A program made the translations under genes and the position numbers. From the IMG/VR virus record IMGVR_UViG_3300028297_000007, positions 1-48,616 of that record: a DNA stretch of 48,616 nt. The stretch is one strand, 5' to 3'. Of the stretch, positions 10,185-36,531 are shown piece by piece (the first letter of the stretch is position 1; each line of letters opens with the position of its first letter). Below the pieces are notes generated by a model. The model ran no database searches. It was not told the origin of the DNA and saw only the letters and a list, made by a program, of their open reading frames with translations. The stretch comes from a virus.

Positions 10185-10553
10185 ATGAAAACATTTTTTG
10201 AATACTTAAGCGAAGAGAATATAACTAAAGAGGAAATTACCCTTTTAGAAGAATCTCTGCAGTCAGAATGGACTGATGAATTAGAGCAAAAAGTAGATGC
10301 TGCTTTAGAAGAATTTACTAGACAGTATGCAAATGAAGATGGAACGTTTGATTTTGAAAGATTTAATGAGGAATTAACAAATGAAGGTTTCTTAGGTTCT
10401 ATATTTGGTGGCCTTACAGGATTTGCTCTAGGTAAAACAATTGGTAAAACAGTTGCTAAAGTTCTAGGAATTCAGAAAGGTATTTTTTACGATTTATTAA
10501 CCTCAAGATTAGTTGGCGCTGGATTAGGTGCGGCTATCGGAAAATCATTCTAA
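10185..10553 (+). CDS. Small putative internal head protein with T4-like capsid-targeting peptide and glycine-zipper helices
   Basis: The N-terminus 'MKTFFEYLSEEN' closely resembles the capsid-targeting peptide MKTYQEFIAE of the T4 internal proteins, which the prohead protease gp21 cleaves after the Glu at position 10. A second candidate site, 'ELTNE|GFLG', lies at residues 63-70. The first ~65 residues are acidic and helical. The remainder (residues 68-122) is Gly/Ala-rich with small-residue spacing ('GSIFGGLTGFALGKTIGK' and 'LVGAGLGAAIGKSF'), a glycine-zipper pattern often associated with membrane insertion. I infer a head-packaged protein whose released C-terminal part may act on membranes during ejection. 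The function is unproven. It has its own candidate promoter upstream. Confidence 0.5.
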   Translation: MKTFFEYLSEENITKEEITLLEESLQSEWTDELEQKVDAALEEFTRQYANEDGTFDFERFNEELTNEGFLGSIFGGLTGFALGKTIGKTVAKVLGIQKGIFYDLLTSRLVGAGLGAAIGKSF

Positions 10554-15868: not shown

Positions 15869-17995
15869 ATGGCACAAGTTAATAAAATTTCTTCATTTAA
15901 ATCGTTTACAGAGATTAGAAAACAGGAATCTGTTAGTAAACTTAGAGAAGAAAACAATTTAAAAAGACAAGAATCAGTTGGTAAAATAGCTGCTATTCTA
16001 GATGAATTAGGATTAACTTCTTTCGAAGGTTTAGAAGAAGATCAGAAAGAATCAATTATCTCAAAAATATTTGGAGATGTTTCAGAAGAAGAAATAGCTG
16101 AAATAGAAGTAGAGGTAGAAGATGTTACTGCATCAGAAGAAGTTACTGAATCAGACGAACCAAAGTGTACTAATAAAAAAGGACATTTATATAAGCAAAT
16201 TGACAAGGACGGAACGGTAGAATGCGTACACTGTGGTCTAAGAAATTCATTAAGCGAATCTTTAGTTACTGAAGCTAAGACCGTTACTAAAGCAGCAATT
16301 GAAGAAATTGGTGATTTTAGAGACAGTGAAGGATATTCTTCTAATCAATACTATATACTAGCTGACTTCATTGATGGAGAAATCACTATGAAAGATCTTT
16401 CAAAATTAGTAAAGTCTAAAGAAGTACAAAAAGAATTAAAGGGAGAAGATGAAATCGATATGGAACATATTGAAGAATTTTCAGAATCTTTAGTTACTGA
16501 AAAAGCTAAATTTAAAGTAGGAGATACTACTGAAAATTCAATTGGAAGCGAAGTTGAAATAATCGCTATCGATAATTGGAGAAAGATATCAAAGCAATTT
16601 AAAAAAGAAATGGGATCAGATGCAGATTCATACGGATATGAAGATACTGCAAAGGGAGATTACTATCTTGCTAAAATTGTTAAAAGTGAAGAAGGTGATG
16701 AAGGTGATTTAGGTATATTCCCAGTTGAATACGATCACGCAAATTACTGGGGATTAGGAGAATCATTAATGAATGAGGCCTTAGATATTAAATATAAAAG
16801 AGATGCAAAGAAAGTATTAACTCAATACAATAAAATATTTGCAGAACTAGGAAGCTTAACAGCTGATAAAATTTCTCACTTAGGAGCTATTAAATATATT
16901 TACGCTGAAGCATTAACTGATGCTAATTTCCATAGAGAAAGAACAGCTACTGAAAAAATTATCAAAGGAAGATTAGGAAGTGTTACTGTTAATCCTTTAA
17001 CTCTTGGTAAACAAGCTATTATAGTAGGAGCAAAGAAAATATCACAGATATTAGATGAGTATTATTCTAGAATTTCAAATGCTGCCGGATGGTCAGGTAT
17101 TGGAGTTGCTGAAGGCACTGCTCTATATTTAGAATCTATTGGTGAATCTAAACTTGCTGAAAAATTATTAGCAGGATTTAACGCAGTAGAAGAATCAGTT
17201 AAGTTTCAATTAACTGAAGAAGAAATTTCTTTAAAAGAATCTAAATTTAACGAAGTAATCAATTATGTAATTAATGAAGGAACTAGAGGTCAATTTGGTA
17301 AAATAGACAAGAAAGGAAATATTACTTCAGTATATACTCACTATGATTCATATCCTGAAAACATGTTGCCTATTATTAAATCAACCTTTAAAAGTGGTAA
17401 AAATGTAGATTTTGTTCTTAAAAATGGAGATAATTCAGGTTTAGATAAAGACGTTAAGAAAATTAATTTCTATGGCGGAGATGTTAATCTGATGAAAGGT
17501 AATGTTAAGAATATTAACAAATATATTAAAGATGCAAATTACGAAGGTGGTGCAGAATTCGTTTATTTATGGGATGAAGGTTCTAAAAAATGGATGATGG
17601 CAGATATCTACGGAGAAACTGGATTAGTTCCAGCATTTGAATCAAATATTTATGAAGGTACTACTACATCTTTAGATGAATTTACAACTGACACTAAAAG
17701 TTACTCAGGTGCTTTAGCATATTCTTTTAAGAATCATAAAAAGAATTTTGATAAAAATATTAAAGTAAGTGTTGCTCTTGGAGATAAGTTTAAATTTACA
17801 AATGAAAAAGGAGGTATTGTAATGCAAAGGTCTCATGGTCCTGAATTTGACACAGTATGGTTATCAGCTGATAAGAAAAAAGCTCAAAAAGTTGCAGATT
17901 GGCTTAAATCAGAAGGTGCTGAGATTGTTCTTTTCGGCCCAAAGACTAGATCATTTGTTGGTAGCAAAGAAGAATTTATCGATAGATATTTATAA
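15869..17995 (+). CDS. Modular putative internal head protein with repeated protease-like sites and a zinc ribbon
   Basis: I do not recognise a family for this 708-residue acidic protein. It is punctuated by short motifs resembling prohead-protease sites: 'SESLVTE|AK' (E135), 'SESLVTE|KA' (E211), 'GESLMNE|AL' (E303), 'KESKFNE|VI' (E462) and 'NYVINE|GT' (E470). The N-terminus, 'ISSFKSFTEIRKQES', resembles a capsid-targeting peptide. Residues ~100-130 contain a possible zinc ribbon, with a Cys and His in 'KCTNKKGHLY' and two Cys in 'ECVHCGL'. The segments between the sites look like separate small domains. I infer a head-packaged precursor cut during maturation. It has its own promoter-like element upstream and a strong terminator downstream. 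Confidence 0.5.
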   Translation: MAQVNKISSFKSFTEIRKQESVSKLREENNLKRQESVGKIAAILDELGLTSFEGLEEDQKESIISKIFGDVSEEEIAEIEVEVEDVTASEEVTESDEPKCTNKKGHLYKQIDKDGTVECVHCGLRNSLSESLVTEAKTVTKAAIEEIGDFRDSEGYSSNQYYILADFIDGEITMKDLSKLVKSKEVQKELKGEDEIDMEHIEEFSESLVTEKAKFKVGDTTENSIGSEVEIIAIDNWRKISKQFKKEMGSDADSYGYEDTAKGDYYLAKIVKSEEGDEGDLGIFPVEYDHANYWGLGESLMNEALDIKYKRDAKKVLTQYNKIFAELGSLTADKISHLGAIKYIYAEALTDANFHRERTATEKIIKGRLGSVTVNPLTLGKQAIIVGAKKISQILDEYYSRISNAAGWSGIGVAEGTALYLESIGESKLAEKLLAGFNAVEESVKFQLTEEEISLKESKFNEVINYVINEGTRGQFGKIDKKGNITSVYTHYDSYPENMLPIIKSTFKSGKNVDFVLKNGDNSGLDKDVKKINFYGGDVNLMKGNVKNINKYIKDANYEGGAEFVYLWDEGSKKWMMADIYGETGLVPAFESNIYEGTTTSLDEFTTDTKSYSGALAYSFKNHKKNFDKNIKVSVALGDKFKFTNEKGGIVMQRSHGPEFDTVWLSADKKKAQKVADWLKSEGAEIVLFGPKTRSFVGSKEEFIDRYL

Positions 17996-18013
17996 TAAAA
18001 AATAAAAATAAAC

Positions 18014-18043
18014 TGACCTGGATTTTTCCGGGTCAAGTTTTTT
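18014..18043 (+). terminator. Intrinsic terminator
   Basis: The hairpin TGACCTGGA / TCCGGGTCA (18014-18035), with a TTTT loop and one G-T pair, is followed by a T-run at 18038-18043. It ends the transcript of the modular gene. The next ATG is only 19 bases further on, with a TTATATTAG element in between that recurs at 31604, so a promoter probably sits there. Confidence 0.85.
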
Positions 18044-18062
18044 AATTATATTAGCTATATAC

Positions 18063-19433
18063 ATGGAACTAAATAACAACTTTGTAGATTTTATTCAACA
18101 TCACGCAGATGCACAAGGCATGACCAGAGAGGAATATGTTGCACATTATATGAGTGAAAATAAGAGTAAAGTTTTATCATTTGACGAATATATCGTTGAA
18201 AAATACAATACACTTAAAGAAGAATTAATCTTAGAAGGCGGTGCAGCTGGTCACATGTCTCATCCTTTCGATGAAAAAGATTTAACATTCGCAGATTTTA
18301 AAAAGATCGTAACGTCCGGTCTTCAAGGAGAATTAAACTTTGAAGAGGTAGCCACTGAAAAAACAGACGGTCAAAATCTATTAGCAACCGTAAAAAACGG
18401 AGTTACGATGTTTTCTAGAAATAAAGGTCAATTAATTAGTCCCGTTGATTTAGACGGTATTATAGAAATGTTTGAAAAGCATGAGGTACCTTTAGTGCGA
18501 GAAACATACGTGTTTGCAGCTAAAGATCTAAATGAAGCTCTTCCAAAAATTAAAGATCAGTCCATATTTAATGACGGTAAAGATTTTATAAATATAGAAT
18601 TAATCTATTCTAAAAACCCAAATGTAATCTATTACGAAAGAGATGTTCTTCAATTTCACGATATTCAAGAAACTGATGGGAATGGTAATATTACAGGATC
18701 TAGAAAAATAGCAGGAGAATTAGTCAAAGCTTTAAAGGAAGTAGATGCCGATGTTCAAAAGACATTTACAATAATTCCTCCTCAGATTTTAAAACTAGGT
18801 AAAGATATTAATTTTGATAAAAATCAAGCTAAATTTATAAAGCAGATTGAAAAATTAAGAGATCGTTATAACTTAACAGACGGTGACGAAGTTTCTAGAT
18901 ATCATGAAATGTGGTGGAGAGAAACAATAGATGCAAATTTCCCAGATTTACAACAAGACTATAAGGAAGGTTTATTATTAAGATGGGCTTATGGAGATAA
19001 AAAGTCTTTAAATATGAGATCACTTGCAAAGGAGATAGGAAAAGATGAAGCTGCTTCTGTTAAGAAATTTGACAAAGAAGATGTTAAAAAGAAATATAAA
19101 GAAAACATTAGACCGTTTGAAGATTTATTTTTAGAACTAGGGTCTATAATTCTTATGAATGCTTCTAATTTTGTAGCTGCAAATCCAGACAAAGAGATGC
19201 AAAGACTACATAATCAAATTAGATCAGAATCTGAAAAGATCAAAAAAGATGGAAGCGTTACTCAGATCGAAAAGGTAATGAAAGAACTAGAGAGATTAGA
19301 TAGAATTGGAGGAGTAGAATCTATCATACCAACTGAAGGAATAGTTTTTGTATATAAAGGAAAGACTATGAAACTAACAGGTACTTTTGCTGCTATCAAT
19401 CAGCTGATGGGAATCATAAAGTACGGAAGATAA
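18063..19433 (+). CDS. Ligase-like covalent nucleotidyltransferase with capsid-targeting-like N-terminus
   Basis: The 456-residue protein has ligase-superfamily signatures. Motif I is 'TEKTDGQNLLATV', with the candidate nucleotidyl-lysine at K100. A motif-III-like strand is 'FINIELIYSK'. Near the C-terminus, 'TEGIVFVYKGKTMKLTG' fits motifs IV and V. The first ~58 residues are separate: 'VLSFDEYIVE|KY' (E46) and 'EELILE|GGAAGHMSHPFD' (E58) look like capsid-targeting and protease-cleavage sequences. I infer an enzyme that transfers AMP or seals nucleic acid, packaged in the head. Its substrate (RNA, DNA or something else) cannot be told from sequence. The neighbouring gene carries another ligase-like domain. 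Confidence 0.6.
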   Translation: MELNNNFVDFIQHHADAQGMTREEYVAHYMSENKSKVLSFDEYIVEKYNTLKEELILEGGAAGHMSHPFDEKDLTFADFKKIVTSGLQGELNFEEVATEKTDGQNLLATVKNGVTMFSRNKGQLISPVDLDGIIEMFEKHEVPLVRETYVFAAKDLNEALPKIKDQSIFNDGKDFINIELIYSKNPNVIYYERDVLQFHDIQETDGNGNITGSRKIAGELVKALKEVDADVQKTFTIIPPQILKLGKDINFDKNQAKFIKQIEKLRDRYNLTDGDEVSRYHEMWWRETIDANFPDLQQDYKEGLLLRWAYGDKKSLNMRSLAKEIGKDEAASVKKFDKEDVKKKYKENIRPFEDLFLELGSIILMNASNFVAANPDKEMQRLHNQIRSESEKIKKDGSVTQIEKVMKELERLDRIGGVESIIPTEGIVFVYKGKTMKLTGTFAAINQLMGIIKYGR

Positions 19434-19443
19434 ATAATATAAT

Positions 19444-21315
19444 ATGGCACTTAAAAAACTAAGACAAGTATTTCAGGAAACTAATATCAATGCATTTCAA
19501 GATATGTTGAATAGCAGGGTTCTAGTAACTGAAAAAATACAAGGAGCTTCATTTCACGTTAGAAGAAACCAGACTAAATTTGAATATTACAAATCTGGAG
19601 ATTCTAGAATGAACATGATAGACAGAACAATAGTAGGTTTATATGAAACAGGTGTCAAGCACATCCAAAGTTTAGATCCTAGTATAAAGGAACAAATGCC
19701 ACATGATTGGAAATTTGGTTTTGAATATTTACCTGAATTAAACGTGTCAGAATATAAATATACTAAACTACCTAAAAACAATTTAATACTTACGCACATT
19801 CAAACTATGAATGAGTCAGGTAAGATTAGAAAAACAATTAGCGATCCAATTATATTAAATAAATGGGCAAAGATATTAGAGGTTCAAGGACCTAGCATTG
19901 TGTTTGATGGTATGCTATCTCAAATGCAAAAAGAAGAATTAATAAGTGTTTTATCTATGTCAGATAAGGAGTTTTCTGAAGCATTTGATTATGATCCAAA
20001 TACAGATGCAAGATTACCTTTCACTCAAAAGATGATTAAGACATTTAATCCAAATGCAGTTTCTCCTACGTTAAATGAAGACTTTGAAGTAGAAATTGAC
20101 GGATTAATAGTTTCTTTTATTGATGAGAAAAAATCTAGATCTTTTAAATTAGAAGATTTTACAAGAACTGTTAGTGAAAATAAGAGATCAAGCCACATGT
20201 ATCAAATTACTATTGCTGGTCTTATTGAATTTATTTCTACATTTGAAATGAAAGACATTCAACTAAATGAAGAAACAGCAGACTGGAGATATATTGAATT
20301 AATGTCAGTGATGTTTAATACGTATGTTAAAGAACACTCTGCTAAGTTTATTGGTGTTAACTTTGAATCAGCTGATTTTGCAGATTCAGATTCCTTTAAA
20401 CTAAATACTAAATACATTAAGAACGAGACCACTCTTTCTTATGTTGAAAACGAAATACTTGCAGAATTATTTAAAATAACTTTAGGTTCTTTTAGAAAAA
20501 AGAGAAGCAAGGAAAGCGATATCATAAATGCAGAAATGTTAGAGCATTTAAATCAAATAGTAGAAACTATAGATAAGAAAGTATTTGTAGAGAATACCGA
20601 TGAAAATTCCATATACGACTTTAATAATTTCATATTACATAATAAAGTAAAGACAAGTGTTAATTTAAATGAAGCACTTAAAGTAGATCATCCTGAACAA
20701 GGAGGAGAATTAGTAAATATGTTTGTTGGTAGATTCCAACCATTTACACTTGGACATGCTAAAGTATTAGAAACTATACACAAAGAAAATGGATATCCTG
20801 TGGTTGTTTTATTAGTAAAAGCAAAGAATAAGAAAAAGGAAGATGCATTTAAAAGACCTTATGATGAGAAGACACAATTAGATATGTTTAAGGCGGTTCA
20901 AAAACAATATCCATTCTTAAAAGAAATCTTTGTAATTCCAACCGGAGGTATTGATACAATGTTCAATGCAATGAGACCAACTTATGAACCCGTATTATGG
21001 GGAACAGGAAGCGATAGAATGAAAACTTACGGATTCCAAGTAAATAAAGATTCTTATAGAGAAGATCTTGGAGTTAGGAGTGATTTTGGATTATTTGAAA
21101 TTCCAAGAACAGACAATAATATTTCAGCGACTCAGGTTAGAAACGCAATGCTAGACGGAGATGAAGGATTATTTAAGTCAACAACACCCAAAGCATTACA
21201 TAAAATGTATGGCGAACTTAAGAAAAAATTAGAAGATTCAGTAGGTACTTCAGAATCAAATGAAGTTGCTGAATCATTATTAACATTTAAACAATTTTTA
21301 GAAAACAATGGATAG
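19444..21315 (+). CDS. Fusion of ligase-like nucleotidyltransferase and NMN adenylyltransferase-like domains
   Basis: Residues ~1-260 resemble an RNA-ligase (Rnl2-type) catalytic domain. Motif I is 'VTEKIQGASFHVRR' (compare T4 Rnl2 'REKIHGTNFSL'), followed by 'FGFEYLPEL' and 'EIDGLIVSF' with 'RSFKLED'. Residues ~410-600 are a NadM/NadR-type NMN adenylyltransferase: 'MFVGRFQPFTLGHAKVLE' carries the (H/T)xGH motif and 'ISATQVRNAM' the ISxTxxR motif. A predicted protease site, 'VNLNE|ALKVD' (E410), lies just before the NMNAT domain. The C-terminus, 'LLTFKQFLENNG', again resembles a capsid-targeting peptide. The NMNAT domain would make NAD+ from NMN and ATP. The purpose of the ligase-like partner is unknown. 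Confidence 0.7.
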   Translation: MALKKLRQVFQETNINAFQDMLNSRVLVTEKIQGASFHVRRNQTKFEYYKSGDSRMNMIDRTIVGLYETGVKHIQSLDPSIKEQMPHDWKFGFEYLPELNVSEYKYTKLPKNNLILTHIQTMNESGKIRKTISDPIILNKWAKILEVQGPSIVFDGMLSQMQKEELISVLSMSDKEFSEAFDYDPNTDARLPFTQKMIKTFNPNAVSPTLNEDFEVEIDGLIVSFIDEKKSRSFKLEDFTRTVSENKRSSHMYQITIAGLIEFISTFEMKDIQLNEETADWRYIELMSVMFNTYVKEHSAKFIGVNFESADFADSDSFKLNTKYIKNETTLSYVENEILAELFKITLGSFRKKRSKESDIINAEMLEHLNQIVETIDKKVFVENTDENSIYDFNNFILHNKVKTSVNLNEALKVDHPEQGGELVNMFVGRFQPFTLGHAKVLETIHKENGYPVVVLLVKAKNKKKEDAFKRPYDEKTQLDMFKAVQKQYPFLKEIFVIPTGGIDTMFNAMRPTYEPVLWGTGSDRMKTYGFQVNKDSYREDLGVRSDFGLFEIPRTDNNISATQVRNAMLDGDEGLFKSTTPKALHKMYGELKKKLEDSVGTSESNEVAESLLTFKQFLENNG

Positions 21316-22387
21316 GTACGATTTTGAAAGAGCACTACATAGTGCTGCAAAAACCAACGCTGAAAATGAAGCGTTAATTATAGAATCCTATATTGGAGTT
21401 GCAACGACCGGAAGTAAATCTGCCCAACAGAATTTATTTAATTCAATTAATAGAACATTTAAAAAGAATAAGTGTCCATGGCAAGGTGTTAAGTTTACTT
21501 CAACACAGGATGTTAAACAACAACCTGATGGCAGGTTATGGCTTTCTAAAATGGATGACGATACATTCGGAGTAGTTTTTCAATATTTAATGTTAAATAA
21601 AAGCGAAGCAAACGAATTGTTTAATATTGGAAGAGACGATAATGGAATTGGTGCTGGAGAAATAATGCTAGCGTATATTGTAGAAAATATAAAAATAGGT
21701 GGAGGTGCGGCCGATACTGACTTAGAATTATATAATGAAAGGTGGTCACCAATTAAACCACCCCTTGGTAAATGTGAGTTAAAAGAAGCTCAAATGTCAA
21801 AGGGCATGTTACAAAATTGGAGAACAGGTGCAAAACACCAGGGAATTAATAGTACTTATGTACCGAAGTTAACGGCATTATATGACGCAGTAAAATATAA
21901 TATTGAAGAAATCAACCCGGACGGAGATGGTAAAGATATGGCTGCCGGTGGAGGTTGGATAAATGAATGGGGAACTGTAGGTGGAAAAAGATTTAAGCAT
22001 ATTCAAAATTTAACTAAGACAGATATTCAGGCCCTTTCTTCTAGTGAAAGAGATTTTAAAATAGGTCCTGGAGATAAAGATAACGGCGCATTAGTAATTA
22101 AATTTAATGACGTAGAATTAGGAAAGCTAAGTGACTCTAAAACTGCAGAAAAAATTAAAAGTATAATAGAGACTGAGCCTTCCGTTAGAACATTTACTGA
22201 AATACAAGACGATGTAATTTCAGCAGTAGGAGATATACCTACTCCATTCCTTTTTATAGAGTCTAAAGATCATGAAATAGTAGCTTTTCACTATTACAAG
22301 AAATTACCTGGAAAAACTAGCGAATTACAAATATATTCTATTACACAAGGTAAATTTAAATATAAAATAAAGCCTAACCGAGTTTAA
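21308..22387 (+). CDS. Putative PD-(D/E)XK-type nuclease-like protein
   Basis: The 359-residue protein overlaps the upstream gene by eight bases. Residues ~110-165 show a pattern seen in PD-(D/E)XK proteins: a helix with 'GIGAGEIMLAYIVEN', then 'GGGAADTDLEL', then a strand with 'GKCELKEAQ', so that D and E-x-K are suitably spaced. A conserved-looking 'WRTGAKHQG' follows. The C-terminal half ('FLFIESKDHEIVAFHYY') is of unknown fold. A nuclease or a packaged structural relative is possible. The N-terminus, 'ENEALIIESYIG', faintly resembles the cleavage motifs of its neighbours. The assignment is from pattern only. Confidence 0.4.
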   Translation: MDRYDFERALHSAAKTNAENEALIIESYIGVATTGSKSAQQNLFNSINRTFKKNKCPWQGVKFTSTQDVKQQPDGRLWLSKMDDDTFGVVFQYLMLNKSEANELFNIGRDDNGIGAGEIMLAYIVENIKIGGGAADTDLELYNERWSPIKPPLGKCELKEAQMSKGMLQNWRTGAKHQGINSTYVPKLTALYDAVKYNIEEINPDGDGKDMAAGGGWINEWGTVGGKRFKHIQNLTKTDIQALSSSERDFKIGPGDKDNGALVIKFNDVELGKLSDSKTAEKIKSIIETEPSVRTFTEIQDDVISAVGDIPTPFLFIESKDHEIVAFHYYKKLPGKTSELQIYSITQGKFKYKIKPNRV

Positions 22388-22407
22388 ATAAACAAATACA
22401 AATAAAA

Positions 22408-25400
22408 ATGAGCACTAAAAAAACATTCGAAAGCTTTGTAAATTCAATGAACGAAAACGTTGATTTATATAAAGTATACAAAAAGGTTTCTGGGAAATAT
22501 TCCTTGAGAAAGCCTTCTTATTGGGGAGATCTATTTAACCAAAGAGCTTCTATTCCATATAGAGAATTAACTAAATATGATAAAGAATTACATTCCTTAG
22601 ACGTATACACTACTAAAGAATTAGGATGTCATAACGAATATCCATTACAATCTAACTTTAAAGTTCAAGTGCCACAGGTATTTGTATTATATTGTAACAC
22701 TGAATCAGGTGAGCTTGGAGAGTATTATGGAATGAGTATTCTTGTAAATACAGAAGGAGCAACATATCCAAGATATGCATGTGGTATGCCAGATTTCGAA
22801 CCAGAATTACATAACTTTGTAAATGGAATTCCTGAAAGCTATTTAAACATTGTAACGACTGGTGCTCAATTGTTACATGAACAGATGATAGTTGAAGGTC
22901 AATTTTCATGGCTTACATCCGATACAAACACACAAATAGGTTCTGAAAGACAGAACATGATTACAGTATTTATGTATGATAATATGGGTAACAAGTGGAC
23001 GGAAAAGGATTATGAAGGATATGGTGAATTTGGTGGAATGGATTATTATGATCTTGTTGCTACAATGAATGGATATACTGAAGAAGATGTTAAAACAATG
23101 AAAGGTTCATTTAAAGAATTAAGACAACTTGGTATTGATTTAGCATTCGGTAAAATAAAGACCAAAGATAAAAAGAAAAAGACATTATTCCCTGCATTAG
23201 TTGAAGATCCAAGATTTAATTGGAAAAGACATGACTTTACTGAAGAAGCAGAATCTGATCCAAATCAATCATGGTATCAAGAACCTGAGTATGATGATTA
23301 TGAAGATGATGACGATTACGAAAACGGATGGTATGAATCAAAGGTTACTGAAGCCAAAAAGCTTACAATTAAAGATGTTGAAAAGGCATGGGATTTTTCT
23401 TATGGTGAAGATTTTGAATATGAATATGGTAGTGTCTATGTTGAAATCATGGGAAAATATAAAGGTAAAATTACTAAAGATGAATTAGCTAAAATATGGG
23501 ACGACAAGTATGGTGAAGATTTACAAAGTGAACATGGTGGATTCTTTGATAAGCTAGACGAAAATTTAAATGAAGCTACTGTAGTAATGGATGCAATAGA
23601 TCCTAAATCAAAAACACTCAAAAAGCTTTTAAAGAAATATAATGTTAAAATGAAAGTTTTAACAATGAACGGCCCTGGTGGCAATTGGCCAGAAGTTGAA
23701 ATGACAGGTTCAAGAGAAGATTTACAATCAGTATTAGCCGATCCTAATGGATGGGACGATCCTGAATTAGGAGAATACATTGAAGAATCTAATATATTAG
23801 AAGCTAGATCTATTAACAAGATTTCAAAGGAATTTGGAGAAACAGTTAATAAGATGAAAGATATTGTAAAGATATACATCGCTGCGGAAGATGGAAGTGA
23901 TGAGAAAGCAGCAACTAGACAGCAGCTAATAGATTTAACAGCAAAAAAGAAAGCTCTTACAAATGAACTAGATGATGCAGTAGCTGGTAAAAACAAAGAT
24001 GTAAAATTAGTTATCAGTGAGGGTGTTATGTCTGACATTCACCAAATGATAGGTAATCACAAATCATTTGATACTTTTCAGAAAGAATTCTTTAAAGAAT
24101 ACGGACATAAGAAAGTAATGAAGAAAACTCCAGAGTTTTTAGAATGGTTAAAGGCACTATATAATGATTTTGAATATACGTCAGGTGAAGCTGTTGAAGA
24201 AAGGTATACTAAAAAGTCATTATTAAAAAAATTAGGAGATGCAGATGATGCAATGATTCAAACCGGAAACGGAAAAGAATATATCATTTATAATCCTGAT
24301 TCTAATAACGATGACAATGCTGCAATGTGGCATGATAAATCAGTATTTGCACTAGATCAAGACGGTGGAGAGCATGAAATAGCATATAAGGATATAGGGC
24401 TAGTAATGGTAGAATCAGCAGTTAATGAAGATGTGTATGCAGACTTAGAAGACACTATTTCTAATATGGAATTTGATGCATATCAAAACTTAGCATCTGA
24501 ATTTGGTATAGATGCTGAAGATCCCAACGAAATGATGGACTTTATTCAAAATGAACTTGACAAGAAGGGTGCTAAACTCTTAATCAAGAACATTGAAAAA
24601 GGAGTTTATGAATCATTAGTTAATGAAAAGGACGACGCCGGTGACCACTTAGATAATCTTGCAGATTTAGTAGGTAAAGCTAAAGATTTCTTTGCAATCG
24701 GTAAAGAATTAAAAGCAGGTAAATACAAATACGACTATAGTGATAGTATGATGCCAATGTATACGATAAAAGCAGATGGTTTTAAATTTGCAATACTTAA
24801 CAAAAGATATGTTGACGGCGGCGATAGAGAAGTTGGAGAGATTGCTATTGGCCTAATGGAATCAATGGTTATTGAAGCTAAGGGTTTTAAAAACGATGAA
24901 GATTTCGAAGAATTTTTAAAAGAAATCGATGCTATGCCAGAAAGAGCAGTTAGAAAGATAATGGGTAAAGAATATATCGATACTCCTGGTTTTTATCAAG
25001 ATGAAAAAGACAATTATGATGATGTAATTGACTTCATGATTTCAAACATGGGTGCAAATATTTATCACCAATTAGAACAGTGGTGGGAATTAAACGTAAT
25101 GAAACCGGGTCTTAGAGAATCTAAAATTCAAATAAAAAGAAGATATACCGATAATCATCCTGCACAAACTTCAGGTAGAACTGCTAAAGTCAGAAACGCA
25201 ATGATCGAGGCATTAGCGGATGGTGTATTAACAGAAGAAGAATTCAATAATATTCTAAAAGAAAAATCAATCGATAATAAAAGATGGATGAGAAGAAATT
25301 CTAAATACTTTACAGTAAGTGAAAATGGAATTGGTCTTTCTAAATTTGGAAAAAGAATATTAACTGGAATTAAACCAGTTGTTAGTTTAACATTAGAATC

Positions 25401-25626
25401 TTTTATTAACGAAGCTAATTATATTAAATTTAAAGGAAAGAAAGTAGATATTAGTTCATTAGAAATGGAAGATGTTGATATGAAAGATTATCCAGATTTC
25501 ACAGATGCATTCTTTAGTTATGGTGAATATTCTAATGGAAAAGAAATGACTGACGAAGAATTATCAGATTTCACAGATGATAATCCAGACTTAGCTAATG
25601 AATTAGCACATGATTCCTTACATTAA
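22408..25626 (+). CDS. 1072-residue putative polyprotein of internal head proteins
   Basis: I do not recognise a family, but the architecture is striking. The N-terminus, 'KKTFESFVNSMNE|N' (E16), resembles a capsid-targeting peptide. Eight more sites of the same kind follow: 'ESKVTE|AK' (E315), 'DENLNE|AT' (E389), 'ESNILE|AR' (E465), 'KLVISE|GV' (E538), 'ESAVNE|DV' (E674), 'YESLVNE|KD' (E740), 'MESMVIE|AK' (E823) and 'LESFINE|AN' (E1002). They divide the chain into a first ~300-residue part and then pieces of 66-179 residues. An Asp/Glu/Tyr-rich run (residues ~292-305) comes just before the first internal site. I infer a polyprotein cut by the prohead protease into many small head proteins. 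Confidence 0.55.
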   Translation: MSTKKTFESFVNSMNENVDLYKVYKKVSGKYSLRKPSYWGDLFNQRASIPYRELTKYDKELHSLDVYTTKELGCHNEYPLQSNFKVQVPQVFVLYCNTESGELGEYYGMSILVNTEGATYPRYACGMPDFEPELHNFVNGIPESYLNIVTTGAQLLHEQMIVEGQFSWLTSDTNTQIGSERQNMITVFMYDNMGNKWTEKDYEGYGEFGGMDYYDLVATMNGYTEEDVKTMKGSFKELRQLGIDLAFGKIKTKDKKKKTLFPALVEDPRFNWKRHDFTEEAESDPNQSWYQEPEYDDYEDDDDYENGWYESKVTEAKKLTIKDVEKAWDFSYGEDFEYEYGSVYVEIMGKYKGKITKDELAKIWDDKYGEDLQSEHGGFFDKLDENLNEATVVMDAIDPKSKTLKKLLKKYNVKMKVLTMNGPGGNWPEVEMTGSREDLQSVLADPNGWDDPELGEYIEESNILEARSINKISKEFGETVNKMKDIVKIYIAAEDGSDEKAATRQQLIDLTAKKKALTNELDDAVAGKNKDVKLVISEGVMSDIHQMIGNHKSFDTFQKEFFKEYGHKKVMKKTPEFLEWLKALYNDFEYTSGEAVEERYTKKSLLKKLGDADDAMIQTGNGKEYIIYNPDSNNDDNAAMWHDKSVFALDQDGGEHEIAYKDIGLVMVESAVNEDVYADLEDTISNMEFDAYQNLASEFGIDAEDPNEMMDFIQNELDKKGAKLLIKNIEKGVYESLVNEKDDAGDHLDNLADLVGKAKDFFAIGKELKAGKYKYDYSDSMMPMYTIKADGFKFAILNKRYVDGGDREVGEIAIGLMESMVIEAKGFKNDEDFEEFLKEIDAMPERAVRKIMGKEYIDTPGFYQDEKDNYDDVIDFMISNMGANIYHQLEQWWELNVMKPGLRESKIQIKRRYTDNHPAQTSGRTAKVRNAMIEALADGVLTEEEFNNILKEKSIDNKRWMRRNSKYFTVSENGIGLSKFGKRILTGIKPVVSLTLESFINEANYIKFKGKKVDISSLEMEDVDMKDYPDFTDAFFSYGEYSNGKEMTDEELSDFTDDNPDLANELAHDSLH

Positions 25627-25627
25627 A

Positions 25628-25637
25628 AGATATATAC
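25628..25637 (+). promoter_or_regulatory. Candidate phage promoter element AGATATATAC
   Basis: The GATATATA core (25629-25636) starts just after the polyprotein stop and lies 24 bases before the ATG at 25661. The spacing is the same as in the copies at 3173 and 10152. Confidence 0.5.
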
Positions 25638-25660
25638 TATTATAAACAAAACAATATAAA

Positions 25661-26995
25661 ATGAAACTATATACTAACTTCGATAATTTTATCAATGAAG
25701 CAAAGGTTATGAAGCAGAAAGATACTGCTAAAATAGCAAAAAAATTAGCAGCTGCTCTTTCAAAAGCAGACGGAAAAGAATTCACAATTTCTAAAAATTC
25801 ATTAGATTCCGGTGGTTTTGATCTAGATATGGATGGAGACGAATATGCAGGAGGAACTTATTTTATTGGTGATGCTGGTGAAATAGTAAACGCAGCAACA
25901 CATAATGATGTATATGGTCACATGGACGATAGCGAAGCTGAATTAGTTAAAACAATTAAAAAGGGTAAATTTGCAAAATACAGAGCAACTGAATCTTTAG
26001 AACTTAATGAAGCTCTAGCTTCTTCCAAGTTAAGAGGATTAATAGACATCAAAAAAGGTGGTAAGGAATTAATTAAAGGTATATACGGTCTTGCTAAAGT
26101 AGCACTAGATAAAGTTACCGATGATATGATAATTTCTAATAGCAACCCAGTTGAAGTTTATAAGAAAGCAAAAACATTCGGAAACGTAATTGTATTTTGG
26201 ATTTCTAGAAATGAAAAAGAAAATGAATATGCTCCTTCTTCCGGAAGATATGTTGAAATGATTCCTGGAAATTGTTTATTAGCTGTTTCTAATGGAAAAA
26301 ATGAAATGTTTCAGAACGATTCAATATGGAATAGAAACAGCGACACAATAGGTGGTAAGAAAAACACAAGAAGACTTAAGAACATGGGTAAATACCCTGG
26401 ATCTAAAGATACTGTCGGTGTTAACAAATCACACAACCAATATAGTGGAACGGGATTAGGTAACATTAAAAGAATTGCGGAAATGTCTGACGAATGTTAC
26501 ATTATTAATTTAGACACATTAAGAGCTTCTTTATCTACCGATGATAAGACATCTGCAAGAGCAGAGGCAAAATCTGGAGCTACTGCACTTACAAACCCTA
26601 AGAAAATCAAAGAGGATAACTTAACAAGGTATAACGATATTCTTGCGAAGAAAGCTGATAACCCAGATAAAATAGACAAGAAAGTTAAAGAAATTATCGA
26701 AGATGCACACCAATTCTTAATGGCTGGTTTAGCTAAAAAAGAATTAGGAAACTATAACGAATTAACAATAGGAAAAGACCCTAAAGGAAGAGAAATTAGA
26801 CCTAGAGATTTAACCAATTATATTGCAAATATATTGTCAGATTATCAAGGATATGTTTCAGCATACGTTAATATGAAAACTGAAGAAGAAAAATTCGGTT
26901 CATCAAGTTCTTGGTATATGAGAGATGCTAAGCGTAAAGCACTAGAGCTTAAGCAAAGAATGGCTAAATGGGATAATAAAAACATAGTTTGGTAA
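25661..26995 (+). CDS. Putative internal head protein with N-terminal targeting peptide
   Basis: This 444-residue protein has no recognised family. The N-terminus, 'MKLYTNFDNFINE|AKV', puts the candidate cleavage Glu at residue 13, the same position as in the next gene. A second site, 'ESLELNE|ALAS', is at E117. Between them is a small ~100-residue domain. The larger C-terminal portion contains 'FGNVIVFWISRNEKENEYAPS' in shortened form (FGNVIVFWISRNE), 'CYIINLDTL' and a basic C-terminal helix. The layout is leader, small domain and larger domain, as if two products were released. An enzymatic role for the C-terminal part is possible but not shown. Confidence 0.5.
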   Translation: MKLYTNFDNFINEAKVMKQKDTAKIAKKLAAALSKADGKEFTISKNSLDSGGFDLDMDGDEYAGGTYFIGDAGEIVNAATHNDVYGHMDDSEAELVKTIKKGKFAKYRATESLELNEALASSKLRGLIDIKKGGKELIKGIYGLAKVALDKVTDDMIISNSNPVEVYKKAKTFGNVIVFWISRNEKENEYAPSSGRYVEMIPGNCLLAVSNGKNEMFQNDSIWNRNSDTIGGKKNTRRLKNMGKYPGSKDTVGVNKSHNQYSGTGLGNIKRIAEMSDECYIINLDTLRASLSTDDKTSARAEAKSGATALTNPKKIKEDNLTRYNDILAKKADNPDKIDKKVKEIIEDAHQFLMAGLAKKELGNYNELTIGKDPKGREIRPRDLTNYIANILSDYQGYVSAYVNMKTEEEKFGSSSSWYMRDAKRKALELKQRMAKWDNKNIVW

Positions 26996-26996
26996 A

Positions 26997-27314
26997 ATGA
27001 AAAAAGTAAAATTATTTGAACAATACATTAATGAATCAGCTATCGATTTATTAGCAGATGAAATAGAAGATGCAAAAGCATTTGATGCGTTTTCAGATGG
27101 ACAATCAGTTCAAGCAAGATCTACTAAAAAAACATGGGACGATGGTGTTCCAGTTTTAAAGTATATTGCTAGAGCTCCAAAAAAATCTGTTAAATTACCT
27201 AAGAAATTTAAAGTAGTAGACGACACTAAATATGGATGGTGGTATTTACAAGTATCAGGAGTATGGTATGGCATCGAACAAGATGATTATGGAACTCCAC
27301 CATTTGAATATTAA
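26997..27314 (+). CDS. Small putative internal head protein with targeting peptide
   Basis: The 105-residue protein starts one base after the previous stop. The N-terminus, 'KVKLFEQYINE|SAID', has the candidate cleavage Glu at residue 13. The rest is an acidic helix followed by a Lys-rich stretch and an aromatic C-terminal part ('KYGWWYLQVSGVWYG') that looks like a small beta domain. No family is recognised. Confidence 0.5.
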   Translation: MKKVKLFEQYINESAIDLLADEIEDAKAFDAFSDGQSVQARSTKKTWDDGVPVLKYIARAPKKSVKLPKKFKVVDDTKYGWWYLQVSGVWYGIEQDDYGTPPFEY

Positions 27315-27317
27315 GAT

Positions 27318-29189
27318 ATGGAATTAAACGAAAACGAAAACTTATCACTTGGCGATATGGCCGGAATGGGAGAAGTCTCTTTACCATCTGAAACATCAGT
27401 TGGATCAGGGGATATTCCAGCCGGAAAAGGAGATGCCGAAGAAGAGTATAAGAAGAAGAGAAATAAAAAGAAACAACGCGAAATGAAAAACATTATATCA
27501 TTTGAATCTTTCGGATCACTTGATGAAGGTAAAACAATATCTTCTTCTAAAATATCTATGATGGGTGCAAGAGTTCTTAATAAAATTAGCATCGGTACTA
27601 TATTTGATACAGAAGATGGAAACTATGAAATTACGGATTATGGCCGACAGGCAAATGCATTTAAAGAATTTGAAGCAGAACATAATGGTAAAAAAGTAAA
27701 GGTAAAATTAACTGCAATGTATGGTGTTAAGTTAGAAGTAACTGACGATGTACGCAGCGCTAGATTTAATAAAGAAGTAAAGCTAAATTCTATTATTTTA
27801 GAATCGGTTAATGAAGGTAAGTTTGACGGTATTGCAGATTTAGTAAAATCTTTACATTTTGAAATGGATCCTAAAACTGCCGAAGAAAAGAAGATTGAAA
27901 TAGGTTACAGACAAGGAGAAGTAACAAAGCGTAAACAAATTGAAGGTGGTAATTATTCACTAAGAAGATTCAGAAAAGAAATTAAATATTGGGACGGTAA
28001 TAAAAGAGATCAAGAATGGGCAGAAGGCGTATTTGCTGGTCCAGACCATTATAATACTGTAAAGTCAACATTAGGAGCTGGTCCTCATAAGAAAGCTGTT
28101 AAGAAAGTAAGATGGACTCAAAGGAAATATGACCAATGGTTAGAAGACGTTGCATCAAACGACGGTTGGAAGAATGCCTATGATATGGCACAAAACGCCC
28201 AATTCGAACCAGGTCTTATTGATTGGGTTGAGAAAAACTTTAGAGGTGATGATCCAATGCAAAGAATCCAATGGGATATTGAAGCATTTGCAGAATCAAC
28301 ATCCACTAAACTGACTCATTTAAAATCTATTAATGAAGATGTTATTTTAGATAAAGAAACAGATGATGAAATATTCGATTCAGAAACATACTATACAATA
28401 AGTAAGGTTTTAGCTATTGCTAGAAAATCTAAAGAATGTAAAGAAGCATACAAAAGAGAATCTAACTTCGGTAATGGTTTACAAATGGCTGAACGTTTAA
28501 AAAAGGAATTTCCAAAAATTCAATTCAAATGTAGAGTTTATAGATCAGAATGGAATTATGGAGGTAACTTATGTTTGAGCATTGAGCTTCGAGGAAAATC
28601 ATGGAAACATGAAGTATTTAAGTTTCAGTCTAACAACTCAACGCGTAAACCTAATTATTCATTTGCAAAATTATTCAATGGAACCAAAAAAGTATCAACT
28701 GGAAAGGTAGAAGATGATTGGGGTATGGGAACTGTACATGGTTCTTATCAATCTATTTCTAGCTTTGATAAATTTATGGATGATGTAGTTGGAGTTTTCA
28801 AAGATTACAAAAGAGTAAACGGAGTAGAATTTGACATGAAAACTATCCTAGCAGGTTTTAAAGCTAATGATAAAATATTAGCCGAATGGACTAGATTAAA
28901 GCCAAGAATCGAAAAGCAATATGACATCGCAAAGGCAAGCGGAAGAAAAGCACATAGAAGAATAGAATTAAGAATGCCTTATATTAGAACGGCTGAAAAG
29001 AAAGTTTATTATAAGACTGACGAGCCAAGAGAATTAAGACATCCTGATGAATATGGAGAAAGCGCTTATAATATTATAGATGGAAGAGATTACGCTAAGT
29101 ACGAAGCTGCTCAAGCTAAGGTTTCAGATATGATTGAAAAGTTTTGTAAGAAACATAACTTTGAATTTGTATGGGCTGCTAGCTGGTAA
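27318..29189 (+). CDS. Modular putative internal head protein, 623 residues
   Basis: The N-terminal 55 residues are acidic then Lys-rich and contain 'GMGEVSLPSETSVGSGDIP'. An in-frame ATG at 27483 would start the chain at 'MKNIISFESFGSLDE|GK', which looks like the targeting peptides of the neighbours, so the long form may be a leader-extended version. Further candidate sites are 'LESVNE|GKF' (E166) and 'LKSINE|DVI' (E340). Between and after them are basic helical and mixed domains with many Trp and Tyr residues. The high Lys/Arg content of the later part would suit DNA association in the head. No known family is recognised. A strong terminator follows. Confidence 0.5.
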   Translation: MELNENENLSLGDMAGMGEVSLPSETSVGSGDIPAGKGDAEEEYKKKRNKKKQREMKNIISFESFGSLDEGKTISSSKISMMGARVLNKISIGTIFDTEDGNYEITDYGRQANAFKEFEAEHNGKKVKVKLTAMYGVKLEVTDDVRSARFNKEVKLNSIILESVNEGKFDGIADLVKSLHFEMDPKTAEEKKIEIGYRQGEVTKRKQIEGGNYSLRRFRKEIKYWDGNKRDQEWAEGVFAGPDHYNTVKSTLGAGPHKKAVKKVRWTQRKYDQWLEDVASNDGWKNAYDMAQNAQFEPGLIDWVEKNFRGDDPMQRIQWDIEAFAESTSTKLTHLKSINEDVILDKETDDEIFDSETYYTISKVLAIARKSKECKEAYKRESNFGNGLQMAERLKKEFPKIQFKCRVYRSEWNYGGNLCLSIELRGKSWKHEVFKFQSNNSTRKPNYSFAKLFNGTKKVSTGKVEDDWGMGTVHGSYQSISSFDKFMDDVVGVFKDYKRVNGVEFDMKTILAGFKANDKILAEWTRLKPRIEKQYDIAKASGRKAHRRIELRMPYIRTAEKKVYYKTDEPRELRHPDEYGESAYNIIDGRDYAKYEAAQAKVSDMIEKFCKKHNFEFVWAASW

Positions 29190-34666: not shown

Positions 34667-35134
34667 ATGGCAAACATTGACAACGAATGTAAAGATCTAG
34701 AAGTAAAAGATTTTTACGACCAATCAACAACACACTTAGCAGATATCATGGAAAACCAAAAGAAGATGCAAGAGCAGACTTATGGTTTTAACTTTGATAA
34801 TATGACAATCCGAGAAATTATGGATTTCTGGCACTGTAACACACATGCAGTAGTTGACGAAATTCATGAAATGACAGATGCTCTAGGCGGTATTAAAGAC
34901 GGAAGTGGTAATGCAGTATGGAAATACTGGAAAAAAGACTTCACTAAGTATGATAAGTTAAAAATTTCTGACATGTCCGAAGGCGACAAAAAAGAATTGT
35001 ATATGGAATGGGTAGACATTCTACACTTCTTTATTAATTACGCCGCTTCAATTGGGCTAGATGCTAAAACAGCATACAACTACTACTTCGCAAAAGCAGA
35101 AGAGAATGTTAACCGTCAGAAAAATAACTATTAA
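34667..35134 (+). CDS. Dimeric dUTPase-like (all-alpha NTP pyrophosphohydrolase) protein
   Basis: The 155-residue all-helical protein carries the metal-binding pattern of the dimeric dUTPase/MazG superfamily: 'VDEIHEMTDAL' (E-x-x-E), then 'EWVDILHFFINYA' (E/D-x-x-D-x-x-HF). It ends 'YYFAKAEENVNRQKNNY', as in dimeric dUTPases. It would hydrolyse dUTP to dUMP, keeping uracil out of DNA and feeding dTMP synthesis. Its stop codon overlaps the start of the polymerase fragment by one base (TAATG), which places it in the replication unit. A MazG-type substrate (dCTP or others) is possible. Confidence 0.6.
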   Translation: MANIDNECKDLEVKDFYDQSTTHLADIMENQKKMQEQTYGFNFDNMTIREIMDFWHCNTHAVVDEIHEMTDALGGIKDGSGNAVWKYWKKDFTKYDKLKISDMSEGDKKELYMEWVDILHFFINYAASIGLDAKTAYNYYFAKAEENVNRQKNNY

Positions 35135-36531
35135 TGATATTAGATATTGAACAGAGAGACAGGGATGTTATCATCTCTTACTACGACACCGAAGGTAAAG
35201 TAGCATTTAAACAATATCCAATTTCACAGTATCAGAACTGGTATGTATGTAATGATAATGATAAAGGCAGAAGTCTAGATCATAAAAACTGGGATGGCAG
35301 ATCAGTCAAACTAGGAAGTGCAAGAAGATATAATAAGTTTTCTTTAACTTATTTCTTAGATTCATTACCCGCAAAGGATAAAGAAGAAATCTTTGCATAC
35401 AATATGCCTAAAACATACTTCGTCGATATTGAAACTGAAATCGTAGATGGCTTTCCAAAAGCTGAAGAAGCTAAAAGTAGAATCCTATCATTTTCCATAA
35501 TTACACCAGAACATAAAGCTATTGTATTAGGATTGGAAGATATGGATTCTAAAAGCATCCAAAAAATTGAAGACGATACTAATAAGTATTTCAAAGACTT
35601 TGATCAGGATTGGGAATTCAAATATCAGAAATTCGAGTCAGAATATGACATGGTCTATACGTTCTTAATGAAGTTCCTACCTAAGTTTCCAATGATGACA
35701 GGCTGGAACTTTATTAATTATGATTGGCAATATATTGTAAACAGATGTAAAAGATTACAAATTGATATTGCTGAAGTTTCTATGACACAATCTTTGGATA
35801 GAAATGACAGCAGACCCTTACATATTGGAATCTTAGATTACATGCAATTATATGATAAGTATGATAGAAGTGTAAAGGTAAAAGAATCTAATGCACTTGA
35901 TTATGTCTCAGGTCAAGTTCTTAATGTTAACAAGATTAAATTTACAGGATCTCTACAGGATTTATATAGGGATGATTTTGTAAAATACATTTACTACAAT
36001 GTAGTCGATTCCGTATTGGTTTATTATATAGATCAAAAGTTGAAATCGATGGAAGTTCTTTTAACCTTGGCAAACATCACAAAGATGCCTCTATATAAAG
36101 CAGCATCGCCAGTGGCAGTTACAGAATCTCTGATTGCACGAAAATTATCAGAAGAAGGTAAACGAATTGGATCTGAAAAGAAGGAAGACAGTGAAAAGAA
36201 TGCACAATATGCCGGTGCTTATGTAAAAGAACCCATTACTGGATATTATGCAGGTGTAAGTGCATTTGACTTTGCATCACTATATCCTTCTATAATGAGA
36301 CAATTTAATATTTCACCTGACGCCTTTGTTGAAAAGGTAGCAAAGCATGAAGTCGCTGAGCGAAGAAAGGATAAAGAAGTAATCGTTTGTGAAAACGGAG
36401 TAGTCTATAAACAAGAGACTTCAATGTTAAAGAAAATTCTAGGAGATTTATATGATCAGCGTAAAGATTATAAACAAACCTCATACGAATATTTCACTAA
36501 AGCCGACAGACTTAAAAAAAGATTAAGATAA
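35134..36531 (+). CDS. gp43A: DNA polymerase family B, N-terminal half (exonuclease and palm motif A)
   Basis: The 465-residue fragment holds the proofreading exonuclease and the first part of the polymerase domain. Exo I is 'YFVDIETEIVDGF', Exo II 'GWNFINYDWQYIV', Exo III 'YNVVDSVLVYYID'. Polymerase motif A is 'FASLYPSIMRQFNISP'. It ends 'DRLKKRLR', in what would be the fingers of T4 gp43. Motifs B and C are missing and are found in the separate gene at 40451. All exonuclease carboxylates are present, but the palm lacks half its catalytic residues, so it must pair with the second fragment. A small terminator hairpin overlaps its stop. Confidence 0.88.
   Translation: MILDIEQRDRDVIISYYDTEGKVAFKQYPISQYQNWYVCNDNDKGRSLDHKNWDGRSVKLGSARRYNKFSLTYFLDSLPAKDKEEIFAYNMPKTYFVDIETEIVDGFPKAEEAKSRILSFSIITPEHKAIVLGLEDMDSKSIQKIEDDTNKYFKDFDQDWEFKYQKFESEYDMVYTFLMKFLPKFPMMTGWNFINYDWQYIVNRCKRLQIDIAEVSMTQSLDRNDSRPLHIGILDYMQLYDKYDRSVKVKESNALDYVSGQVLNVNKIKFTGSLQDLYRDDFVKYIYYNVVDSVLVYYIDQKLKSMEVLLTLANITKMPLYKAASPVAVTESLIARKLSEEGKRIGSEKKEDSEKNAQYAGAYVKEPITGYYAGVSAFDFASLYPSIMRQFNISPDAFVEKVAKHEVAERRKDKEVIVCENGVVYKQETSMLKKILGDLYDQRKDYKQTSYEYFTKADRLKKRLR

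Follow-up and report, generated by a model that had tools for sequence, protein, structure and literature searches.

The question raised by this locus is why one block of genes in a viral genome should repeat the same short, glutamate-ended peptide. The DNA analysed (the window, 48,616 nucleotides) is IMG/VR virus record IMGVR_UViG_3300028297_000007, positions 1 to 48,616, a 48.6-kb piece of a marine T4-like phage; the block (the island, positions 15,869 to 29,189) holds eight genes, each named here by the position of its first base. An earlier note, made from the letters alone, had proposed that these genes encode capsid-targeted proteins, several of them precursors, that are cut by a prohead protease and injected with the genome. 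Judged by comparison of related sequences, the long proteins 15869, 22408, 25661, and 27318 are strings of interchangeable modules, with a linker that is typically ES-V-V-[NT]-E|A (the bar marks the putative cut). A unit extends from the residue after one linker Glu up to the next Glu (x...ES-h-h-[NT]-E|), and the alignments show units entering, dropping out, becoming duplicated, and passing from one gene to another at or close to the linkers. The block is probably prohead cargo built as cassette polyproteins that would be packed and cut. The strings (lengths in amino acids, aa) and their sites are the following:

15869–17995 (+): module-string protein 1 (708 aa), in which a conserved N-terminal module with the start SF-x-x-F is followed by F28-F16-F3-F4 and a tail
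16256–16273 (+): linker ESLVTE|A, Glu135 of 15869
16484–16501 (+): linker ESLVTE|K, Glu211 of 15869; a related locus (L016) carries an additional module directly after the Glu codon
16760–16777 (+): linker ESLMNE|A, Glu303 of 15869; low-confidence gap ahead of a well-predicted helical module
17267–17278 (+): site VINE|G, Glu470 of 15869; the following residue aligns to profile position 2 of PHROG 1987
17639–17656 (+): degenerate linker ESNIYE|G in 15869; L016 holds another module there
22408–25626 (+): module-string protein 2, 1072 aa, eight sites
22426–22455 (+): N-terminal targeting-like FESFVNSMNE|N, Glu16 of 22408
23335–23352 (+): linker ESKVTE|A, Glu315 of 22408 (site model and motif words)
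23557–23574 (+): linker DENLNE|A, Glu389 of 22408 (site model and motif words)
23785–23802 (+): linker ESNILE|A, Glu465 of 22408 (motif words)
24412–24429 (+): linker ESAVNE|D, Glu674 of 22408 (motif words)
24610–24627 (+): linker ESLVNE|K, Glu740 of 22408 (site model and motif words)
24859–24876 (+): linker ESMVIE|A, Glu823 of 22408 (motif words)
25396–25413 (+): linker ESFINE|A, Glu1002 of 22408 (site model and motif words)
25661–26995 (+): 444-aa protein with a targeting-like N-terminus, module F10, a linker, and the 326-aa C-terminal module F1
25676–25699 (+): NFDNFINE|A, Glu13 of 25661; low-confidence tail of the predicted structure
25991–26011 (+): linker ESLELNE|A, Glu117 of 25661; low-confidence gap (residues 108–117) separating two predicted domains
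27318–29189 (+): 623-aa protein with a capsid-arm-like N-terminus, an internal targeting-like peptide, and then modules
27363–27413 (+): GMGEVSLP...GSGD segment of 27318, resembling (by eye) the N-arm of a major capsid protein
27483–27527 (+): MKNIISFESFGSLDE|G in 27318, a targeting-like N-terminus including its Met, now internal
27801–27815 (+): linker ESVNE|G, Glu166 of 27318

Motif words were counted in the eight island genes (4,390 aa), in the 38 other genes of the window (11,246 aa), and in shuffled copies of the island. The word ES.[VILM][NT]E[AGSKDN] was found seven times in the island and once in the other genes (shuffled mean 0.02), such strict linker words being about 18-fold denser in the island and nearly missing from the shuffles. 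The corresponding counts were five and zero for ES-h-x-[NT]-E-[AGKS], 17 and 7 for [ILVM][NT]E[AGSK] (p = 1.7e-5; shuffled mean 2.8, maximum 9), and 14 and 5 for the broader ES..E (p = 4.8e-5; shuffled mean 3.5, maximum 11). This comparison, proposed in the earlier note as a possible refutation, thus favoured the linker words and failed for two motifs: the suggested check motif [FL].S[FLV]..E was not enriched (one match in the island, two in the other genes), nor was bare [LI].E, the T4-style cutting rule that had been invoked (16.2 vs 13.4 per 1000 aa, p = 0.11). A site model, for which 12 sites from outside the island were the training set, gave 21 island matches (4.78 per 1000 aa; shuffled copies mean 7.1, maximum 16) and 39 matches in 184 other genes, from which the 11 training genes were excluded (0.81 per 1000 aa, a density 6-fold lower). 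With 7.1 matches in shuffled copies, about 14 of the 21 sites stand above chance, and the 'at least twenty' claimed originally is too high. Recurrence of the pattern in eight genes held for seven at best: at least one protease-like site was found in 7/8 genes, the evidence being few sites each in 18063 and 19444 and a single site in 27318 (by motif words; zero by the model), and in 21308 a site was found neither by the model nor by the motif words. The five peptides quoted in that note are all present. MKTFFEYLSE begins 10185, and NFDNFINE|A, LFEQYINE|S, and TFESFVNSMNE are N-terminal in 25661, 26997, and 22408; ISFESFGSLDE|G had been given as an N-terminus, but it lies after an internal Met (position 27483, residue 56) of the 623-aa open reading frame (ORF) that starts at 27318. 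Glu-rich proteins might produce such words accidentally, as the unenriched L/I-x-E and the average of 3.5 ES..E words per shuffled copy would allow; set against the density of the strict words, this explanation is hardly credible.

Exchange of modules was followed in 68 related loci from one scan (54–100% identity in the adjacent 19444 protein). The pooled island proteins numbered 450, with 178 left once copies 90% alike were dropped. In ten loci that were compared, the flanking genes, 18063, and 19444 were constant in place, and the long proteins varied in module content: segments of 15869 and 22408 recurred in different orders and in different genes. Homologues of 15869 keep the first module, with the middle modules exchanged and reordered; F1 closes the protein in 24/25 family members; L016 has another module at the position of the 25661 linker ESLELNE|A; and the stretch of 27318 at about 27537–27806 is different or missing in relatives. 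Internal alignment ends lay within 12 aa of a site in 207/523 and 206/509 cases, compared with 16% for random positions, site-free proteins (65/588 and 78/587 ends) being excluded and the pairs not being independent. When the proteins were cut at the sites, 423 fragments fell into 58 families of at least two members (37 with at least three) and 69 singletons, some of the 58 being ordinary downstream genes caught in the set; F0, F3, F4, F5, and further families each had several different neighbours. Because these fragments are defined by the cutting, their ends are no evidence; the alignment-end and insertion tests are independent of it.

For the insertion test, orthologues at least 75% identical were searched for insertions of at least 30 residues, and the site set was extended by [ILVM][NT]E[AGSK]. 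Both edges lay within 15 residues of a site in 9/10 insertions (random mean 0.6, maximum 5), or in 8/9 when two that represent one module in two loci (140 of about 150 residues alike) are merged. The coincidence of sites with alignment ends and with recent insertions is a further point against accidental words, which as a full explanation contradict the insertion result. An additional insertion, outside the ten, was seen at 16484–16501: where the window reads ...GAATCTTTAGTTACTGAA|AAAGCTAAA..., L016 has a whole added unit between P1 and P1', and this unit itself terminates in a linker. A long direct repeat at an insertion, suggested by a 34-base BLAST overlap, was rejected, the overlap reflecting the similarity of two linkers. 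In a further locus (L166), a 1315-aa ORF that is incomplete at the 3' end has 16 pattern matches that delimit units, two of which are similar copies; this ORF, the longest clear string examined, has a targeting-like start, and every unit ends in an E site. These comparisons bear out modularity with linker punctuation.

The linkers are also conserved as DNA. The commonest are ESVVTE|A and ESVVNE|A; in 123 linkers from 23 loci, some of them interrelated, the same codon was used in 1178/1686 pairs within one locus (0.699), compared with 0.536 in simulations and 0.561 for the remaining codons of the ORFs concerned (maximum 0.609 in each case). A 20-base linker pattern was found in at least 120 viral contig stretches, several of which belong to one and the same contig. 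Among the matches listed, 151/156 occurrences lay inside an open frame of at least 100 aa, which again speaks against chance, and at least two core sites were present in 79/119 ORFs and at least three in 50/119. The core density in these ORFs was 4.09 per 1000 aa (1.96 when the finding matches were excluded), and in ORFs lacking the pattern 0.133 per 1000 aa (31 in 232,598 aa). For ORFs with complete starts among the same matches, a targeting-like start was found in 34/52 linker ORFs vs 110/486 other ORFs of the same stretches.

Because the linker DNA is nearly constant, it is probably also a seam for exchange. It is conceivable, at somewhat less than even likelihood, that the DNA word (approximately GAATCAGTAGTTACTGAAGCT) serves both as protease punctuation and as a recombination seam between cargo strings and core proteins, so that a lineage would rewrite its set of delivered proteins by swapping units, in an integron-like manner but within one reading frame. 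Linker DNA more uniform than codon usage predicts would equally suit uncut polyvalent proteins, whose linkers would be flexible joints and seams for recombination and which would act as whole proteins, whether injected or made inside the cell; phages are known to encode polyvalent proteins of 2 to 15 domains (PMC5512222, available text). This alternative is considered improbable. The linker keeps Glu at P1 and mostly A, S, G, or K at P1', matching the site in the phage's protease protein; three stand-alone cyanophage homologues of F4 begin at P1'; and the known polyvalent proteins, according to the same text, themselves carry the metallopeptidase or assemblin-like domain that processes them, whereas neither the island proteins nor ten proteins of relatives gave a match to a peptidase family.

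The cassette reading calls for a head protease in the same phage. Exact matches of six 60-base probes place the window at positions 76838–125453 of a viral contig of 178.7 kb (G001), whose PHROG matches include a portal, a head-maturation protease, and a major capsid protein of the T4 type. The gp21-type protease that the earlier note wished to see sought elsewhere in the genome was found there as a Pfam match above cut-off (PF03420, peptidase S77, gp21 family); PF03420 was over the cut-off in 7/12 related records including G001, the remaining five being fragments of 62–94 kb. The distance from the island end to the portal gene in G001 is about 24 kb, the island coming first. Near the C-terminus of the protease protein, [VI][NT]E|[AS] is kept in 4/4 genomes (G001, G005, G006, and G007) and equals the linker consensus; the island sites are mostly [VILM][NT]E|[AGSKD].

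Three head-related proteins outside the island match island modules. In G001 and G007, a GNAFGAARAKAI module stands directly after ...EE| in the protease-scaffold ORF (best E 3.6e-10); this module was missing from the aligned ORFs of G005 and G006. The G001 protein 44338 (scaffold-like by eye) contains module F29 (82% identity, E 3e-49). In a small acidic G007 protein between portal and protease, taken for a core protein from its place, a 143-residue module precedes a targeting-like peptide (55%, E 5e-48). As a separate observation, protease and acidic scaffold-like region are fused in one 686-aa ORF in G001 (132108–134168; L083:12108-14168). From the match to the conserved protease-protein site and the island modules in head-related proteins, we infer that the linkers are prohead-protease sites.

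Targeting-like N-termini, searched as [FYL]-x-x-[FYW]-[ILV]-...-E within 22 residues, were over-represented in 4/4 genomes: 8/173 ORFs vs 1.5 expected in G001, 4/62 vs 0.6 in G007, 5/120 vs 0.5 in G006, and 3/87 vs 0.3 in G005. In the island, a targeting peptide ending in a site is present in 22408, 25661, and 26997, and also at the start of 18063 in 7/9 aligned relatives (e.g., MKIYTNFTEFLNE); it is present in neither 19444 nor 21308, and 15869 has only the loose SF-x-x-F start. Such starts were also seen outside the window at G001 32205, 125451, 150576, 174421, 44338, and 50666; these genes include an ATP-grasp-like protein and, by eye, a DNA-ligase-like protein and one resembling an AAA-type ATPase to which a further module is added at the N-terminus. 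The remaining features with sites or tags are:

10185–10553 (+): 122-aa protein with targeting-like MKTFFEYLSE|E; adjoins the tail-tube gene, outside the island
18063–19433 (+): conserved, syntenic protein of 456 aa that bears a TEKTDG motif
18174–18200 (+): targeting-like LSFDEYIVE|K, Glu46 of 18063, preceded by an N-terminal extension missing in 7/9 aligned relatives
19444–21315 (+): 623-aa protein with an N-terminal EKIQG motif and a C-terminal nicotinamide-nucleotide adenylyltransferase (NMNAT)-like domain
20656–20673 (+): site SVNLNE|A between the two domains of 19444, Glu410; invariant in 10/10 aligned
26997–27314 (+): short stand-alone gene, a targeting-like peptide plus about 90 residues
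27012–27035 (+): LFEQYINE|S, Glu13 of 26997

On this evidence the claim of capsid-targeted, prohead-protease-like proteins in a T4-type phage gained support from the protease, the N-termini, and the modules in head-related proteins. The block of eight precursors fared less evenly: precursor-like strings with site punctuation and module exchange were found, the genes are not eight ordinary internal-protein precursors, and 21308 is excluded.

In the mechanism proposed, the precursor would be anchored in the prohead core by its targeting peptide (MKxxKxFExFxNE type) at the N-terminus, perhaps together with the linkers. During head maturation, the gp21-type protease would then cut after the linker Glu to give several small proteins per precursor, of which at least the larger, near-neutral modules would remain with the DNA and be carried into the next host cell. 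Packaging and injection would follow only from the T4 paradigm, in which, according to the available text of PMC9026906, ten N-terminal residues suffice for packing. The frequent exchange of modules suggests roles against host defences.

The principal competitor of the cargo reading is an expanded disposable scaffold: the strings would belong to the prohead core, cuts at the linkers would dismantle it, the fragments would exit the head, and the module set would tune core size or shape, with no injection. It would account for island modules in the protease-scaffold ORF, in the scaffold-like acidic protein, and beside the small acidic protein encoded adjacent to the portal, as well as for the strong acidity of several small modules and fixed tails; T4 gp22 and gp67 are cut to multiple fragments that mostly leave the head (available text of PMC9026906). 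It nevertheless appears unlikely, if distinctly less so than uncut polyvalent proteins. Charge per 100 aa ranges from +3 to -18 across the modules, and larger ones are near neutral or basic (F1 +3.0, F3 +0.4, F0 -1.6); F3 and F4 are predicted with high confidence; module content differs between close relatives, which would be unusual for an essential scaffold; in 7/9 relatives the targeting-like peptide is borne by 18063, a protein with a putative nucleotidyltransferase-like motif; and F4 exists as a stand-alone gene in the three cyanophages and two Streptococcus phages examined. The likelihoods assigned to cargo and to scaffold overlap, and the modules may include both.

Module identity was examined by family and structure searches. 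F4 matches PHROG 1987, a phage family with stand-alone members, the post-linker residue aligning to profile position 2, and has further matches in giant phages. In the two Streptococcus phages (L228:4998-5342 and L229:4998-5342), the F4 relative stands alone between terminase or toxin-antitoxin genes and the portal gene. Distinct modules are many, most with no family match; the few matches were the NMNAT-like half of 19444, the Pfam domain DUF3008 in relatives, and PHROG families lacking an assigned function. Searches of profiles against PDB sequences gave none for F1 at E up to 1 and five weak matches for F3 (best 0.067), and none of 233 bacterial-genome stretches fitting a pattern was confirmed as an F1 relative. 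A tblastn search of the phages collection gave zero matches for 22408, 25661, and a 971-aa string of L066. In the predicted structures of 15869 and 25661 (mean predicted local distance difference test scores of 56 and 69), ordered modules are present, and low-confidence gaps lie in or at Glu303 and Glu470 of 15869 and Glu13 and Glu117 of 25661; a large part of 15869 is too poorly predicted to judge.

Several results weigh against cleaved and injected cargo. P3 of the island sites is mostly V, I, L, or M, whereas the T4 rule is L/I-X-E (PMC9026906), the bare form of which was not enriched. About 60% of the internal alignment ends lie more than 12 aa from any site. Low confidence also occurs away from sites (25661, residues 219–262 and 294–309; 15869, residues 592–672), fold searches of the PDB with the two predicted structures gave zero matches at E <=0.001, nine proteins gave zero matches in a defence library, and for the 15-kb region no near match was found among phage records. 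Some small modules and the fixed tails, at -13 to -18 per 100 aa, resemble core fragments rather than cargo compatible with DNA. In the capsid protein, [IV]NE|[AS] at residue 26, one of the training sites, is present in 5/7 relatives with a complete start (one N-terminally incomplete row being excluded) and lost in 2/7 (IND|S and IDN|K), whereas LYE at residues 42–44 is kept in 7/7; INE|A, the first choice for the capsid cleavage site, is therefore one candidate of two.

A relative's copy carrying the capsid-arm-like segment of 27318 (L059 15103–15786) matches the capsid protein of G006 (E 3.6e-6), the match starting directly after LYE. GMG-x-x-x-LP...GSGD is common to 27318, to DUF3008-bearing proteins of relatives, and to the N-arm of the major capsid protein (G001, residues about 59–75).

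The two conserved genes of the island gave few clues. The TEKTDG of 18063 was taken by us to be a ligase-type nucleotidyltransferase motif and the EKIQG of 19444 to be ligase-like; family and PDB searches supported neither assumption and gave no convincing match for 18063. Relatives of both proteins are present in LR756500.1, a 462-kb uncultured phage, in which an ORF similar to 18063 (L222:19207, - strand) begins MKFLKSYEEFLNE, a targeting-like start; in the 40 kb examined of this genome, a single ORF has two pattern matches. Elsewhere in the window, a DNA polymerase is apparently split (35134–36531 and 40451–41650), with ribonucleotide reductase and clamp-like genes between the parts (by eye).

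If the cargo reading is true, a small number of reading frames can hold many of the proteins that phages deliver, and head maturation sets these free. The linker would then be a sequence handle for delivered proteins of uncultured viruses by way of its 20-base pattern, a stock of unknown phage domains would be explained as cargo, and what marine T4-like phages deliver to their hosts would become testable module by module. It would also offer a natural design for loading several proteins into a T4-type capsid.

In the open literature (titles and abstract openings, with most subscription papers outside this scope), no description was found of module strings punctuated by prohead-protease sites; four known systems are nevertheless similar in part. 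According to the available text of PMC3012670 and PMC9026906, IPI-III and Alt of T4 share the short Glu-ended N-terminal peptide, highly variable cargo behind a conserved tag, and a genome encoding a gp21-type protease, portal, and capsid. A single propeptide is described for each T4 protein (and a C-terminal one in addition for Alt), whereas the strings have eight sites in 22408 and 16 pattern matches in the incomplete L166 ORF, each closing an exchangeable module. Polyvalent proteins (Iyer et al. 2017, PMC5512222, available text) are likewise long multidomain phage proteins in varied combinations, for which injection with the DNA has been proposed; they are also found in conjugative elements and are self-processed by zincin or assemblin-like domains. 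The strings described here differ in a near-constant punctuation that matches the head protease and in modules mostly lacking a family match. Giant phages of the SPN3US/phiKZ type package many ejection proteins that are cut after Glu by a gp21-like prohead protease; in SPN3US, 14 sites are known in nine proteins, 13/14 cuts removing N-terminal propeptides and one a C-terminal propeptide, and the available text of PMC10052503 describes no module strings of the kind found here. T4 gp22, gp67, and gp68, finally, are cut by the protease into several pieces, and here island modules occur inside the protease-scaffold ORF; the T4 core pieces are mostly expelled, whereas the modules of the present strings are diverse, in some cases predicted to fold, and exchanged between genes.

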